A DNA stretch of 22,128 nt from Desulfobacterales bacterium (GTDB lineage Bacteria > Desulfobacterota > Desulfobacteria > Desulfobacterales > RPRI01), in contig JAGVOC010000383.1 in NCBI GenBank assembly GCA_020052975.1, positions 1-22,128 on the forward strand. Reading direction: 5' to 3'. The notes below the pieces were generated by a model, which made no database searches, was not told where the DNA came from, and was given only the letters and a program-made list of their open reading frames with translations. Below are positions 3,510-18,550 of the stretch, one piece after another. A program made the translations under genes and the position numbers. The first letter of the stretch is position 1. The number at the start of each line of letters is the position of its first letter.

Positions 3510-4808
3510 ATGGACACATCAAAACATCCGCATGACGCACCGGATTTTCAGGTGTCAAGAGGCTACGCGAACTATGTTTTTCTGCTGCTCTTTCTTCTGT
3601 ATATGTTTAATTATGTCGATCGCATGGTTGTGGCCGCGATCTTCCCATATTTGAAGGTCGACTGGGGGCTGACCGACACGCAGTGCGGCTGGTTCGCTTC
3701 CATTGTAACGCTGTTGATGACGGCGTTTGTTTTTCCTGTCTCGTTACTCGTGGACCGGTGGAGCAGGAAAAAGGCGATCGGCATCATGGCCGTGCTCTGG
3801 AGCTTCGCCGCGGCCGCCTGCGCATTAACAAAAAACTTTACCCAGCTCTTTACAATGCGTGCCGTGGTCGGGGTTGGCGAGGCGGCGTACACCTCCGGAG
3901 GACATGCCATGATTGCCGCTTATTTCCCCGAGGAAAAGCGGGCCACCATGAACGGCCTCTTTACCGCCGCTATTCCCATGGGAACAGCTTTTGGAGTGAT
4001 CCTGGGCGGTGTAATCGCTGAAACGCTCGGCTGGCGATACGCCTTTGGTATTCTTGCCGTGCCCGGCCTTATTGTGGCAATTCTTTTTTTCTGGGTGAAG
4101 GACTACAAGACTGTGCAGATGTTGAAAACGTCCCGCGACGGAGACCAGACCGTACAGGTTAAAATGAAGTTCGGGGATATCGCACGTGAATTCCTGAACA
4201 CCCCGTCGGTGCTTTTCACTTATGTCGGATACGTGGGGAATACCTTCGTCACCACAGCCCTCATGAACTGGCTTCCTTCCTACTTCCACAGGGTGGACGG
4301 TCTGCCCATGGACAAGGCTGGACTCAAGACGTCCGTCGTCTTTCTTCTGGCCATCTTCGGCGCGCCCATCGGCGGCTATTTCACAGATAAGCTCAGGCGG
4401 AAACATCTCAACGCCAGAATGAGCGTTCCGGCGCTCAGCTCGCTGCTGACGAGTCTTTTTCTCTTTATCGGATTCTCCTTTCTGGAGGGGAAGGCGCAAT
4501 ATATTTTACTGATTCTCTTCGGTTTTACAGCTCCCATGTTCGCCGCCGGCGGATCTGCGGTTACCCAGGATGTGGTGCATCCGGGCCTCAGGGCTATATC
4601 GTACAGTCTCGCCCAGTTTTTCATGATGCTCCTTGGTTATTCGCTTAGCCCCATTTTCGTAGGGTATATATCGGACCGGTATGACCTGCTCACAGCTTTC
4701 AAATTCCTGCCGCTATTTTCCCTGTTGGGCGCAGCGGCTTTTTTTATCGGGTCTTTCTTTTACGTGAAGGATCTCAAGAAAGTGGAAAAGGTGAGATTGA
4801 AGGAATAA
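3510..4808 (+). CDS. MFS transporter, ACS/Spinster-like
   Basis: This 432-residue inner-membrane protein of the major facilitator superfamily has about twelve hydrophobic segments. The start is the ATG at 3510 because AAGGAGGG lies at 3494-3500; an earlier in-frame start at 3471 is less likely. The first membrane segment ends in NYVDRMVVAAIFPYLK, and GLTDTQCGW follows. The loop between segments 2 and 3 carries DRWSRKKAIG, the usual MFS D-R-x-x-R-[KR] signature, and the equivalent loop in the second half is DKLRRKHL. The NYVDR and LTDTQ motifs are those of the anion:cation symporter and Spinster-like families, which move organic anions, sugar acids or lipids. The substrate cannot be read from the sequence. 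It has no co-transcribed enzyme, and its codons are GC-richer than those of ssb or the pst genes. Confidence 0.85.
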   Translation: MDTSKHPHDAPDFQVSRGYANYVFLLLFLLYMFNYVDRMVVAAIFPYLKVDWGLTDTQCGWFASIVTLLMTAFVFPVSLLVDRWSRKKAIGIMAVLWSFAAAACALTKNFTQLFTMRAVVGVGEAAYTSGGHAMIAAYFPEEKRATMNGLFTAAIPMGTAFGVILGGVIAETLGWRYAFGILAVPGLIVAILFFWVKDYKTVQMLKTSRDGDQTVQVKMKFGDIAREFLNTPSVLFTYVGYVGNTFVTTALMNWLPSYFHRVDGLPMDKAGLKTSVVFLLAIFGAPIGGYFTDKLRRKHLNARMSVPALSSLLTSLFLFIGFSFLEGKAQYILLILFGFTAPMFAAGGSAVTQDVVHPGLRAISYSLAQFFMMLLGYSLSPIFVGYISDRYDLLTAFKFLPLFSLLGAAAFFIGSFFYVKDLKKVEKVRLKE

Positions 4809-4890: not shown

Positions 4891-4936
4891 TTGAACCGAA
4901 ACAGCGAGCACAATCCCCGTTGCTTGCGGCGGGGAT
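4891..4936 (+). repeat. Dispersed stem-loop element, copy A
   Basis: It begins TTGAACCGAAACAGCGAG (4891-4908) and continues into a stem-loop with ATCCCCG at 4913-4919 pairing to CGGGGAT at 4930-4936. The same leader and a similar stem occur at 12121-12166 (same strand) and 6678-6725 (opposite strand). Confidence 0.75.
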
Positions 4937-6533: not shown

Positions 6534-6791
6534 CATGAATGACGGCTTCGTAAAAAGTCATTCTGCTGTGTTGCGCTTCATTTATATGTACGCTTCATTC
6601 CTCAAGATTGAAGCTTTTCGCTGAAAGCAGCGATGCAGCTTCGACCGTAAGGAATATCAAATAATTTAAGATTCGCTCGCTATCCCCGCAAAAAGCAGCG
6701 GGGATAGCGCTCGCTGTTTCGGTTCGCGCGCCCTGCATAATGAACTTTTTACTTTGCCGTCTGAATTTCGACTTTTTACGAGTTTATCATG
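6534..6791. mobile_element. MITE-like non-autonomous element with inverted ends
   Basis: The left end (6534-6559) starts CATGAATGACGG and ends TCGTAAAAAGTC. The right end (6770-6791), read in reverse, starts CATGATAAAC and ends TCGTAAAAAGTC. Inside is an imperfect inverted repeat (about 6597-6620 with 6637-6657, sharing ATTCCT and GAAGCT). Next comes a 12-bp perfect stem CGCTATCCCCGC (6678-6689) with GCGGGGATAGCG (6698-6709), and then an extra CTTTTTAC copy at 6745-6752. There is no open frame for a transposase. The structure fits a miniature inverted-repeat element. The transposase family and any target duplication are not identifiable from one copy. Confidence 0.55.
6678..6725 (-). repeat. 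Dispersed stem-loop element, copy C (inside the MITE-like element)
   Basis: Read on the minus strand it has GAACCGAAACAGCGAG (6710-6725), followed by the 12-bp stem with an 8-base loop. Leader and stem match copies A (4891) and B (12121). This copy has the longest perfect stem of the three. Confidence 0.75.
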
Positions 6792-6944: not shown

Positions 6945-7034
6945 ATGAGAATACAGGAGCCAGGAGTCAGTATCCAGAATAACCATCTTATTGTTTTTCT
7001 TCTGTATTCTGTATTCTGACTCCTGTATTCTCAT
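6945..7034. repeat. Heptamer-built inverted repeat before the MetE-like gene
   Basis: The arms 6945-6981 and 7005-7034 are near-perfect reverse complements, starting ATGAGAATACAGGAG and ending CTCCTGTATTCTCAT. The left arm has about seven extra bases. Inside the left arm CAG recurs every 7 bases (6954, 6961, 6968, 6975). In the right arm CTG recurs every 7 bases (7002, 7009, 7016, 7023). The arms are therefore tandem heptamers of the same kind as the array at 9026-9190. Confidence 0.75.
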
Positions 7035-7079: not shown

Positions 7080-8168
7080 ATGATTAATAATTTCAAGCCA
7101 AACGGTCTTCCGCTCCTGATAGGGAGCCTTCCGGTTGATGACCATCTTCTGGCCATAAAGCTTGTTCTTGAGTATACGCCGGAGATACCTTTGTGGGTGC
7201 AGCTTCCTGTTTTCCGGGAAGAGGGCATGATAGCGCAGTTTCTGCCCGGCCTTCCGGGCCTGACCGAAGAAGATGAGAGGCTTTTCATTGACACTTCAGG
7301 GCGGGATTATGAAAATGGTATAATCGAATTTTACGAGGAATATATATCTGTTACCGGAGGCGAAAAGAATTATGATGATACCAGGTTTGTTTTAACTCCT
7401 GAAACCGCAAGGGGTTTTTTTATTTTTACCGAGAAGATTAAAGATCTCCCGGTTAAGCCTAAGGCTGTAAAGGGTCAGATAACAGGGCCTGTAACACTTG
7501 CGATCAGTGTTTCAGACCATGAGGGGAAGGCGATTTTTTACAACGAGGATATGAGAGATGCGGTTGTAAAGCTTGTCGCAATGAAAGCTGCATGGCAGGT
7601 GAGGCGGCTTTCTGAATTTAAGGTTCCGGTAATAATTTTCTTTGATGAAGCCGCCCTGGCCGGTTTCGGGTCTTCGGCCTTTATAGGCATATCCCCTCAT
7701 GAAGTAGCCGGATGTTTTGAAGAGGTTATCGATGCGGTACATAAAGAATCCGGGCTTGCCGGAATACATGTATGTTCGAATGCCGACTGGTCAGTAGTAC
7801 TGGAGTCTTCCGCGGATATAGTCAGTTTTGATGCCTATTCATATTTTGACAAATTCATCCTTTATTCCGATCATATAAGAAAATTCATTGAATCGGGGCG
7901 GATGATTGCATGGGGCATTGTCCCGACTTTGCGGCCTGAAGATATCGAAAAGGAGAATGCCGCTTCCCTTGCAGAAAACTGGAAAAAGAAGGCAAAAATG
8001 CTTGAGCCGCTTGGATTTGATCTGCGGGCTGTTTTGGCGCAGTCTTTTATTACTCCAAGCTGCGGGACAGGTTCCCTTAATCTTGACCATGCCCTAAAAG
8101 TGCTTAGTATGACGAAAGAGGTTTCACAGATTTTAAGAAAAGAGATAGGAAATTATCAGAAAGGATAA
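7080..8168 (+). CDS. MetE/UroD-like zinc protein (cobalamin-independent methionine synthase superfamily)
   Basis: This 362-residue cytoplasmic protein resembles the catalytic barrel of cobalamin-independent methionine synthase and its UroD-like relatives. Evidence is the early IGSLP, then KGQITGPVTLA in the middle, and the zinc-type ligands H230 and C232 in IHVCSNADW with C328 in PSCGTGSL. An acidic D251 in VSFDAY sits where the MetE glutamate would be. It lacks the N-terminal half of true MetE, so it is more like the short archaeal-type or corrinoid-linked methyltransferases. The methyl donor and acceptor are unknown. The ATG at 7080 follows GAAGGTGAAG. A MoxR ATPase gene starts 6 bp after its stop, so the two are almost certainly co-transcribed. 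Confidence 0.8.
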   Translation: MINNFKPNGLPLLIGSLPVDDHLLAIKLVLEYTPEIPLWVQLPVFREEGMIAQFLPGLPGLTEEDERLFIDTSGRDYENGIIEFYEEYISVTGGEKNYDDTRFVLTPETARGFFIFTEKIKDLPVKPKAVKGQITGPVTLAISVSDHEGKAIFYNEDMRDAVVKLVAMKAAWQVRRLSEFKVPVIIFFDEAALAGFGSSAFIGISPHEVAGCFEEVIDAVHKESGLAGIHVCSNADWSVVLESSADIVSFDAYSYFDKFILYSDHIRKFIESGRMIAWGIVPTLRPEDIEKENAASLAENWKKKAKMLEPLGFDLRAVLAQSFITPSCGTGSLNLDHALKVLSMTKEVSQILRKEIGNYQKG

Positions 8169-8174
8169 GAAAAC

Positions 8175-9020
8175 ATGGTTAGTGAGAAACAAACATTTTC
8201 GGGTGCGAAACACTATGTTCTGGATGATGAGCTTGCCAAGATAGTTAATATATCGATGGCGCTTGAAATGCCCCTTCTTTTAAAAGGAGAGCCGGGGACA
8301 GGAAAAACAATGCTTGCCCATGCCATTGCGGAGAATCTTGGCATGCCGCTTATAGTCCTCAATGTCAAATCAAGCATGAAGCTCGTTGAAGCCCTTTACC
8401 AGTATGATACCCTGACCCGGTTGAATGACAGCCGCTTCGGGGATTCCAAAAGGGATGTCAGCAATATTGAAGATTATATCAAGATGGGAAAAATAGGGCA
8501 GGCTTTTACGTCGGAGATCAGGACAGTGCTCCTGATAGACGAGATAGATAAAGCAGACACTGATTTCCAGGATGACATGCTTGATGTCCTTGACCAGATG
8601 GAGTTCGACATTATTGAAATCGACAAGACAATGGGCGCGAAAAACCGGCCTGTGATTATCATAACTTCCAATGCCAAGAAAGACCTTTCAGACCCGTTCC
8701 TCGGAAGATGCAACTTCCATCATATAGCTTTCCCGGACCCGAAGATGATGCGAAAGATTATCAGGGTTCATTTCCCCAATATTGATTCGGATCTCATGGA
8801 AAATGCCGTCAATGTTTTTTACAAGCTCCGGGAGCTTGAATCGATTGAAAAGCGCCCGGCTACACGCGAGCTTGTAAACTGGATAAGGGCTTTAAAGTCC
8901 GATCCGGATTTTAAGGCAAAAGAGCTTGCAAAGGGAGATATCCCTTATCTTGGCGTTCTTTTCAAAAAGAGCCAGGACTATGAGAGGGCGGTAAATACTG
9001 TCAGCCGCAGGAGGCTGTAA
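8175..9020 (+). CDS. MoxR-family AAA+ ATPase (CoxD-like)
   Basis: This 281-residue chaperone-type AAA+ ATPase has Walker A GEPGTGKT at residues 38-45 and Walker B VLLIDEID with D122-E123. A sensor-1-like IIITSN and an arginine-finger-like DPFLGRCNFHH follow. The helical lid runs through KRPATRELVNWIRAL. MoxR proteins remodel or load metal cofactors together with a VWA partner; CoxD with CoxE in carbon monoxide dehydrogenase maturation is the well-known case. Here the VWA partner follows at 9199, and a MetE-like protein gene lies 6 bp upstream. The 178-bp gap to the VWA gene is filled by a heptamer array, which is unusual because such pairs normally abut or overlap. Confidence 0.93.
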   Translation: MVSEKQTFSGAKHYVLDDELAKIVNISMALEMPLLLKGEPGTGKTMLAHAIAENLGMPLIVLNVKSSMKLVEALYQYDTLTRLNDSRFGDSKRDVSNIEDYIKMGKIGQAFTSEIRTVLLIDEIDKADTDFQDDMLDVLDQMEFDIIEIDKTMGAKNRPVIIITSNAKKDLSDPFLGRCNFHHIAFPDPKMMRKIIRVHFPNIDSDLMENAVNVFYKLRELESIEKRPATRELVNWIRALKSDPDFKAKELAKGDIPYLGVLFKKSQDYERAVNTVSRRRL

Positions 9021-9025
9021 GAAGC

Positions 9026-9190
9026 AGGGGCAAGGGGATAGAGGTAAGGGTATAGGGGTAAGTAGGGTAGGGTATAGGTGACAGGGGATAGGGTTCAGGG
9101 TATAGGGGGCAGTAAGCATGGGTCAGTAACCAGAAACCAGAAACCAGAGACCAGAGACCAGAAACCAGGAACCAGGAACCAGAAACAAGA
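9026..9190 (+). repeat. Degenerate heptamer tandem array (AG every 7 bases)
   Basis: The dinucleotide AG recurs at exact 7-base steps from 9026 to 9061. After a single 8-base step it continues at 7-base steps from 9069 to 9188, with one substitution at 9118. That makes about 24 units filling the whole gap between two co-directional genes. The left half is GGGTATA-like. The right half (9128-9190) is a cleaner series of nine AACCAGA-type units differing by one or two bases. The CAG period matches the inverted repeat at 6945-7034. Confidence 0.85.
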
Positions 9191-9198
9191 GATTTATA

Positions 9199-10389
9199 AT
9201 GTTTATCGGGTTTTTTTATAAATTAAAGGAAGCGGGCATACCAGTCAGCCCGACATCATTTCTTACCCTTCAAAAGGCCCTGGGGAAAGGGCTTGTATCT
9301 TCCCTTGACGACTTCTACACTGCTTCCAGGGCCGTTCTCGTTAAGAGCGAAAGGTACTTTGACCTTTTTGACCAGGTCTTTGCCCATCATTTTGAGGGCG
9401 CGGAAATGCCTGATTATGAGGGTGTTGAGCTTGACGAGCTGGCAAGGGCGCTGCTTGAATCATGGCTCCACGATCCAAAAACCCTTGCTTCGGCTCTTGG
9501 TATAGATGAATCGCAGCTTGCAAAGCTTTCTCCGGATGAGCTTATTGAATATTTCAAGGAGCGTCTTAAAGAGCAGAAGGAGCGCCATGACGGAGGAGGC
9601 AAATGGATTGGAACAGGAGGCACTTCGCCTGTGGGGCATTCCGGGAACCATCCCGGAGGAATGCGTGTAGGCGGTGCTTCACGAAACAGATCGGCAGTTA
9701 AAGTTGCTATGGAAAGAAGATACAGAGATTATTCCCTGGATGGACCGCTTACCCAGGCAATGGTCGGTGAGGCGCTGAAACGGCTTCGGAACATGATACC
9801 TGCAGGACCGAGAGACAGGCTGAACATAGATGAGACTATTTACCAGACAATGAAAAACGCCGGGGAGATTGAAATCGTTTTTGACAGGGATCTGAAGGAC
9901 CGTCTGAAGGTTGTTCTTGCCATTGACAACGGAGGATGGTCAATGGACCCTTATGTCCATGTGGTTCAGACACTTTTCGATTATGCAAGGGCGCAATTCA
10001 AAGACCTTAAAACCTATTTTTTCCATAATACCGTATACGGGACTATATGGCAGGATCCATCCAGATACAAGAAACCTCTTAGAATACAAGAACTTCTGAA
10101 GTTTGATCCCGAAACGAGACTGATTCTTATCGGGGATGCGAGCATGGCCCCCTATGAGCTCATGGCGTCAGACGGTTCTATTTACATAGACGAGAGAAGC
10201 GGAAAACCGAGCATAGAATGCCTCAAGTTTCTGGCAGAAACCTTCCGCCACTCCGTATGGCTCAACCCGATGCCGACCAACATGTGGGGATATACACAGA
10301 CCATTTCAGCGATAGGACGAGTTTTTCCAATGTTTGAGTTCAGCATTGACGGGTTGGAAAAAGCTGTTGCACATCTCATGGCGAAGTAA
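9199..10389 (+). CDS. CoxE-like von Willebrand factor A domain protein
   Basis: This 396-residue soluble protein is the probable partner of the MoxR ATPase. The N-terminal 120 residues (FYKLKEAGIPVSPTSFLTL, SERYFDLFDQVFAHHF) are the helical start of CoxE-like VWA proteins. A glycine-rich linker spans about 132-168, and the VWA domain spans about 230-390. The metal-site motif is not the standard DxSxS: it reads D243-N-G-G-W-S248, that is D-x-G-x-x-S. A later D313 in LILIGDASM is kept. This suggests altered or weakened metal binding, though the divergent form may be normal for this subfamily. The ATG at 9199 has only a weak AAGAGA signal, supplied by the end of the heptamer array, so its translation rate may depend on the repeat. 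No membrane segment is seen. Confidence 0.88.
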   Translation: MFIGFFYKLKEAGIPVSPTSFLTLQKALGKGLVSSLDDFYTASRAVLVKSERYFDLFDQVFAHHFEGAEMPDYEGVELDELARALLESWLHDPKTLASALGIDESQLAKLSPDELIEYFKERLKEQKERHDGGGKWIGTGGTSPVGHSGNHPGGMRVGGASRNRSAVKVAMERRYRDYSLDGPLTQAMVGEALKRLRNMIPAGPRDRLNIDETIYQTMKNAGEIEIVFDRDLKDRLKVVLAIDNGGWSMDPYVHVVQTLFDYARAQFKDLKTYFFHNTVYGTIWQDPSRYKKPLRIQELLKFDPETRLILIGDASMAPYELMASDGSIYIDERSGKPSIECLKFLAETFRHSVWLNPMPTNMWGYTQTISAIGRVFPMFEFSIDGLEKAVAHLMAK

Positions 10390-12120: not shown

Positions 12121-12166
12121 TTGAACCGAAACAGCGAGCGCGTTCTCCGCTGCTTGCGGCGGGGAA
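12121..12166 (+). repeat. Dispersed stem-loop element, copy B
   Basis: It starts 2 bp after the MFS stop. The leader TTGAACCGAAACAGCGAG is identical to copy A over its 18 bases. The stem TTCTCCGC (12143-12150) pairs with GCGGGGAA (12159-12166), allowing one G-T wobble. There is no T-run directly after it, so it is not a classical terminator, though it could protect a transcript end. Confidence 0.75.
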
Positions 12167-12186
12167 TGCTTCAAAACGTGACTATA

Positions 12187-18443: not shown

Positions 18444-18538
18444 GGAGCCGTAACAAAATGGTCAGAAATGTAATTGTTATTTTGTAACGGCTCCTAACAA
18501 AATGGTCAGAAATGTAATTGTTATTTTGTAACGGCTAC
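18444..18538 (+). repeat. 44-bp tandem duplication with hairpins between pstB and phoU
   Basis: Unit 1 (18451-18494) and unit 2 (18495-18538) differ at one base (CTCC against CTAC at the end). Each begins TAACAAAATGGTCAG and ends in GTAACGGCT. GGAGCCGTAACAAAAT (18444-18459) pairs with ATTTTGTAACGGCTCC (18479-18494) with one mismatch, so the first copy can form a 16-bp stem; the second can pair similarly. The unit length is 4 times 11 bp. A small hairpin TGCCG-TGAC-CGGCA lies at 18427-18440. Confidence 0.85.
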
Positions 18539-18550
18539 TAAGAGGTGAAT

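Follow-up and report, generated by a model that had tools for sequence, protein, structure and literature searches.

How does a long run of seven-base units come to fill the space between two genes that usually lie close together, and what keeps its period? The question arises in a 22,128-nt stretch of DNA from a Desulfobacterales bacterium, an uncultured relative of the sulfate reducers (the window, analyzed at its full length), where a period-7 array of 24 units of the form NNNN-(C/T/A)AG, one of them eight bases long, occupies forward-strand positions 9021 to 9189, as delimited by lag identity, TRF and segmentation. The array follows an AAA ATPase gene (8175 to 9020, forward strand) that matches the Pfam AAA model above its cut-off (58.8 bits). 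The original prediction had called this gene MoxR-like; AAA_3 scored 22.6 bits, below the cut-off, and the NCBIfam model MadB_ATPase was far below its own. The array precedes a gene (9199 to 10389, forward strand) with a weak, CoxE-like VWA match (Pfam VWA_CoxE, 20.2 bits versus a cut-off of 26.4) and no NCBIfam match. Using the downstream protein as the query, we examined the best 80 of 408 confirmed stretches, in which titles more specific than phylum give Desulfobacterales or Deltaproteobacteria and a few give only Proteobacteria or Thermodesulfobacteriota. The upstream gene was present in 76 of these best 80 loci, and the gap between the genes was 30 nt or shorter in 42 of the 76, 31 to 60 nt in 2 and longer than 60 nt in 32. 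The genes are usually close, in keeping with the earlier claim that the array splits a pair that normally abuts. Lag 7 or 14 was the strongest of lags 3 to 15 in 20 of the 32 long gaps from the best 80, and 10 of the 32 passed the lag-7 array threshold; the units vary from lineage to lineage. The same gap in one relative (L048, 4865 to 5000) carries a period-8 array with inverted arms rather than a period-7 one.

Autocorrelation confirmed that the period-7 array in the window is real. Over 9026 to 9190, self-identity was 0.658 at lag 7, compared to a mean of 0.310 in Markov resamples (none of 20,000 reached the observed value), and 0.682 at lag 14; in 3,000 further resamples, lags 3 to 14 all stayed at or below 0.51. 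Tandem seven-base units exceed chance in the whole array and in its 3′ half (9124 to 9190; lag-7 identity 0.90, equaled by none of 20,000 resamples; 9.6 copies at 90% by TRF), whereas the 5′ half by itself (9026 to 9123) is weak (0.527 at lag 7, matched by 95 of 20,000 resamples, and 0.619 at lag 14). The units of the 3′ half are 90% alike and those of the 5′ half degenerate; in the CAG arrays of the genus, adjacent-unit identity outside the anchor was 0.547. Segmentation anchored on CAG yielded 23 seven-base units and an eight-base one (TAGGGTAG, 9063 to 9070), close to the +1 slip predicted at 9061 to 9069. The first unit begins at 9021 and the last (9183 to 9189) carries AAG in place of CAG. 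One anchor is broken, as predicted, yet the changed base is 9119 and not 9118, because the broken anchor reads CAT at 9117 to 9119.

The array has two parts on the forward strand. Lag identities and skew define a 5′ part (9021 to 9119) of degenerate G-rich units (GGGTATAG type) that adjoins the upstream stop codon and has a G-quadruplex-type motif, and a lag-7 identity of 0.90 together with the TRF copies defines a 3′ part (9120 to 9189) of near-homogeneous AACCAG-type units that adjoins the downstream start codon. GC skew falls from 0.84 in the left half of the 178-nt gap to 0.0 in the right half. The two halves had been judged unrelated by sequence. They look instead like the two ends of a single drifting array, because a gradient of unit types (GGRT to TTAT/TGAT/TAAR to TAAC to AAAC, each preceding CAG) recurs in several congeners. 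A G-quadruplex as the conserved feature was rejected: only two of seven congeneric gaps (the window and L004) carry the motif. No Rfam family matched at its gathering score anywhere in the window, and terminator-like sites between 6700 and 9400 numbered 3, versus 2.6 expected, with none inside the array.

The closest relatives offer a view of how the array may have started. The genus of genome G001 comprises 10 genomes, 9 of which have the downstream gene, and we read all nine of these congener gaps. Six (L001 to L006) hold period-7 arrays rather than an unrelated, non-periodic sequence. Arrays are absent from the other three (L007, 12 nt; L008, 13 nt; and L210, identical in sequence to L008), so that the congeneric set spans array-free gaps and arrays of 8 to 24 units. 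Sequences beside the gap are about 91% identical to L001 and 92 to 94% identical to L002; the arrays have been largely rebuilt nonetheless. In the array-free L008 and L210, one CAG ends 9 nt before the ATG, and this is also where the last CAG ends in L001, L003, L004 and L005. The window has AAG there, followed by the 9-nt spacer (9190 to 9198, forward strand) that separates the last anchor from the ATG and is equally long in these four array-bearing and two array-free congeners. The register is not shared by L002 (38 nt), L006 (15 nt) or L007 (28 nt). Both flanks are common to array-free and array-bearing gaps. Since two empty gaps and four arrays share the CAG 9 nt before the ATG, the simplest reading of these sequences is that the array would have grown in place, by whole units, from one CAG-bearing unit. 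The ribosome-binding region of the VWA gene (last anchor and 9 nt) also occurs in two array-free congeners, and the array therefore did not create it, contrary to the suggestion that the array supplies this weak site. Foreign insertion was also rejected as an origin, for a blastn search with 9021 to 9198 found no match in 72,556 plasmid and 50,697 phage records, a result to be read with the caveat that the low-complexity filter may hide repeats. Further upstream, between the preceding ORF and the AAA ATPase gene, L001 and L002 carry extra DNA (3835 to 4030, approximately 196 bp, and 3743 to 3916, approximately 174 bp, respectively) that the window lacks; the L001 segment contains a CGTAAAAAG motif like one flanking 6549 to 6780 of the window.

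We consider it fairly probable that a single CAG heptamer gave rise in place to the array, with a constrained anchor and other bases free to drift, through a genome-wide process with a seven-base step. The starting point would be one heptamer with a CAG, sited in the VWA gene's ribosome-binding region, and repeated gain and loss of seven-base units, presumably by slippage, would have lengthened the array in place. New units would be copied from neighboring units, which is the proposed reason why the phase is kept. Four positions per unit would then drift and produce a gradient that resembles two unrelated halves, while CAG, or at least AG, would be constrained, whether by selection acting on DNA or RNA or because the copying step needs the anchor. 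The array would be one product of this process among many, and its only sure effect at this locus appears to be that the two genes are now separated by 178 untranslated nt rather than about 13.

A simpler account is a neutral heptanucleotide microsatellite that arose by slippage and drifts without constraint, kept because the place is non-coding. Heptanucleotides are reported, in a 2007 source cited by PMC4679880 and PMC4692102, to outnumber other long simple repeats in many bacteria. Some relatives have homogeneous arrays of this kind (the CAG arrays of G009, the genome of the culturable Desulfonema magnum, have a within-array identity of 1.0) and three of the nine congeners have none, as the neutral account would allow. 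The contrast between anchor and free positions argues against it. We compared 79 seven-base units from six orthologous arrays, leaving out L006 because much of its array is another unit. Between-species identity was 0.35, 0.40, 0.50 and 0.28 at the free phases and 0.66, 0.90 and 0.85 at C, A and G. Adjacent units were no more alike at the CAG phases than units of different species, and more alike at the free phases. None of 1,500 neutral simulations of duplication and mutation reached the anchor contrast of 0.42, a comparison in which segmentation anchored on CAG favors that phase in the data (CAG 205, next AGG 165) and the simulation lacks this bias. The polarity of arrays near genes, described below and missing from non-array controls, also speaks against neutrality, and we regard unconstrained slippage as unlikely. 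The original view that the period itself is what has been kept is supported, along with the AG/CAG anchor that it also noted. Copying of units from their neighbors is only weakly shown (adjacent-unit likeness against shuffled order, 99 of 2,000 in the genus set and 433 of 2,000 in genome G011). Units did not become more or less alike with distance from the edge of the gene (23:21, p 0.70), which rules against directional growth of the arrays.

The array in the gap is one of many. In some 300 kb of intergenic DNA, period 7 stands out, with at most 8 arrays at any other lag from 4 to 13 in G011, G009 and the 80 loci: G011 has 35 period-7 arrays versus 8 at lag 8, G009 has 39 versus 3, and the best 80 of 408 loci have 34 versus 8 at lag 9. 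Other 7-nt arrays are, then, present in relatives' genomes, although period 7 is not prominent in all of them (2 arrays in G010; 4 versus 3 at lag 8 in G001). A search of 297 genomes of the phylum for the CAG pattern gave 118 at period 7, 121 at period 6 and 29 at period 8; the listed period-6 matches, which served as a control, look by appearance like codon pairs. CAG is not the sole anchor, since the backward control, GAC, was matched many times in certain genomes as well. After deduplication, 158 arrays reduced to 82 strand-merged consensus heptamers that form a continuum, with 147 of the 158 in one single-linkage cluster at one mismatch. Six-unit CAG-heptamer patterns were also seen in at least 120 viral-contig stretches (L231 to L350), several with three or more arrays; a search for near-identical viral contigs that differ in unit number found no usable pair.

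This diversity bears on the possibility that the array is a set of sites through which a putative RNA- or DNA-binding protein would regulate the downstream gene. Such sites would look much as the array does, with an anchor conserved at fixed spacing whose final copy keeps a constant distance from the ATG in several congeners. Against this, arrays lie beside stops (88 of 158) as well as starts (70 of 158), they use many units (82 consensus heptamers), the gap array is lost or absent in three of nine congeners, and the sense of CAG arrays in co-directional gaps is mixed (8:4 in G002, 4:3 in G011). Taken together, these points make a regulator quite unlikely as the reason for the array.

Arrays close to genes are oriented. 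Taking gene edges from ORF calling rather than annotation, we examined the strand that reads outward from the nearest edge. In main-set arrays within 60 nt of a gene, G exceeded C on this strand by 50:9 at stops (n=64) and 32:6 at starts (n=41), while non-array controls had mean skews of +0.034 and -0.053, respectively. The direction was the same in the four gene-pair orientations (convergent pairs alone were not significant, p 0.11), was also present in 61 single arrays without an inverted partner (p 0.001) and survived three alternative choices of ORF and score parameters. No polarity was seen in arrays lying at least 60 nt from a gene (10:12 and 16:13), and G001 runs contrary to the stop-side rule (0:2). 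The 80 viral-contig loci, which were chosen by CAG pattern and in part share a contig, had no GC-skew polarity (38:31 and 23:23); their CAG read outward within 20 nt of stops (28:11) and starts (18:5). CAG orientation was not significant in the main set, where start-side CAG arrays had 9 CTG versus 3 CAG outward. These orientations could reflect a polar gate, in which Rho would terminate RNA that heads into a gene through a C-rich, G-poor array, and RNA leaving the gene would run through a G-rich, C-poor one. The indifference of the polarity to gene direction would fit, as would the YC dimers per 7 nt of the incoming strand, which exceed controls at stops (1.16 versus 0.87) and starts (0.84 versus 0.69). 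Yet several common units have few YC dimers, the viral arrays lack the skew, and the 3′ part of the window's own array has no excess of C over G, which leaves the gate very improbable.

A second element of the same class, missed by the first reading of the window, lies at 6949 to 7034 (no strand assigned), upstream of an ORF at 7080. It is an inverted pair of CAG-heptamer arrays that forms a hairpin in RNA folding (-32 kcal/mol, z -6.7). In L001 the right arm is shorter by precisely one 7-bp unit, a step in line with growth by whole units. The main array has no palindromic hairpin unit of this kind. REP and BIME elements are intergenic, often in inverted pairs and of fixed polarity, and differ from the window array, which has no palindromic core and has heptad arms of changing sequence. 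A bias toward a G-rich 5′ arm is not confined to arrays, being shared by other palindromes (143:91 of 286; 47:53 in G009). A REP- or MITE-like mobile hairpin, with single arrays as its remnants, would account for the order within inverted CAG pairs, in which CAG precedes CTG almost without exception (17:1 in the main set, 42:3 among the viral contigs), and for Y1 transposase genes in 24 of 25 array-rich versus 14 of 25 array-free genomes, hand-picked and uncontrolled for kinship, but is hardly credible given that the window array is unstructured as RNA (z +1.7 for 9026 to 9120, -0.1 for 9121 to 9198), that G148 lacks a Y1 match despite its 189 pattern matches, that the 61 unpaired arrays are still polar and that array-free and array-bearing gaps have both flanks in common. 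For the same reasons of sampling, and because G148 lacks Y1, neither this transposase nor reverse transcriptase (17 of 25 versus 9 of 25 in the same kind of hand-picked, kinship-uncontrolled comparison) was retained as a generator of arrays.

Other repeats were seen nearby. At 18451 to 18541, between two ORFs that we take from their translations to be PstB-like and PhoU-like, lie 2.1 copies, 97% alike, of a 44-bp unit that has inverted ends. Parts of 4892 to 4935, 12122 to 12169 and approximately 6639 to 6725 all match a single stretch in L003 and a single one in L004, the pattern that a dispersed GAACCGAAACAGCGAGC-type repeat would leave.

Cyanobacterial STRR sequences are tandem heptamers with many copies per genome. 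They are, as originally proposed, a fair precedent for tandem heptamers like those described here; the units are probably different. Further parallels come from TAACTGA repeats, which are intergenic in marine Beggiatoaceae, some cyanobacteria and Bacteroidetes and have been proposed to bind S1, Csp or Csr proteins (MacGregor, 2015; PMC4679880). These repeats share with ours the period, a mostly intergenic position near gene edges and 7-nt step changes between strains. Their reverse complement, TCAGTTA, is a CAG heptamer. Because TAACTGA mostly points toward starts (toward a start in 147 of 170 sets and toward a stop in 12, Table 1 of PMC4679880), the CAG strand reads away from the gene in those sets, whereas the start-side CAG arrays of our main set lean the opposite way. 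A small Microcystis sample in the same source has no clear single orientation (of those at a start, 6 are forward and 8 reverse; another 8 lie between stops). The TAACTGA system also favors one exact unit, with near-variants being rare, unlike the units that vary here within an array. No TCAGTTA repeat occurs among the 24 window units; single CAGTTAT units occur in congeners. The GGGNATC and GGGGAYT heptamers of Xanthomonas and Nostoc, explained by G-quadruplexes (Rehm, 2015; PMC4692102), are likewise intergenic, single or in inverted pairs, and of varying length at the same site in relatives. Their G-rich strand lies near the 5′ side of ORFs of any direction in two Xanthomonas genomes and one Nostoc genome, and the G-rich strand that runs away from the nearer ORF is a feature our main-set arrays have as well. 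In contrast, most units here are not G-tracts, and neither GGGNATC nor GGGGAYT is present as an array in the window. A literature search by title, in which subscription literature was thinly covered, found no report of heptamer arrays in Desulfobacterota.

The window array belongs to the known heptanucleotide class, as a variant with a held anchor, drifting units and a traceable start. The class itself was already known, and G-rich heptamers have been described with a similar polarity (PMC4692102); new here are the fixed anchor with drifting units, the polarity beyond G-rich units and the traced origin. The congeneric gaps, some array-free and others filled by 8 to 24 units, together with the nearby change of a single unit, allow comparisons that bear on why bacterial repeats prefer seven bases, and the held anchor beside drifting bases is a way to separate selection or mechanism from plain slippage. 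Explanations by G-quadruplexes only or by translation control only are disfavored because the polarity spans many unlike units. Tentatively, and with considerable doubt, the arrays of Beggiatoaceae, cyanobacteria, Xanthomonas and Desulfobacterota might even form one class, polar, with an anchor held and a seven-base step indifferent to the sequence of the unit, in which the G-rich or CAG strand runs away from the adjoining gene whatever the direction of that gene. If so, neither G-quadruplexes nor a translational regulator would explain all of them, and a dedicated enzyme or RNA-level selection common to bacteria would be needed.
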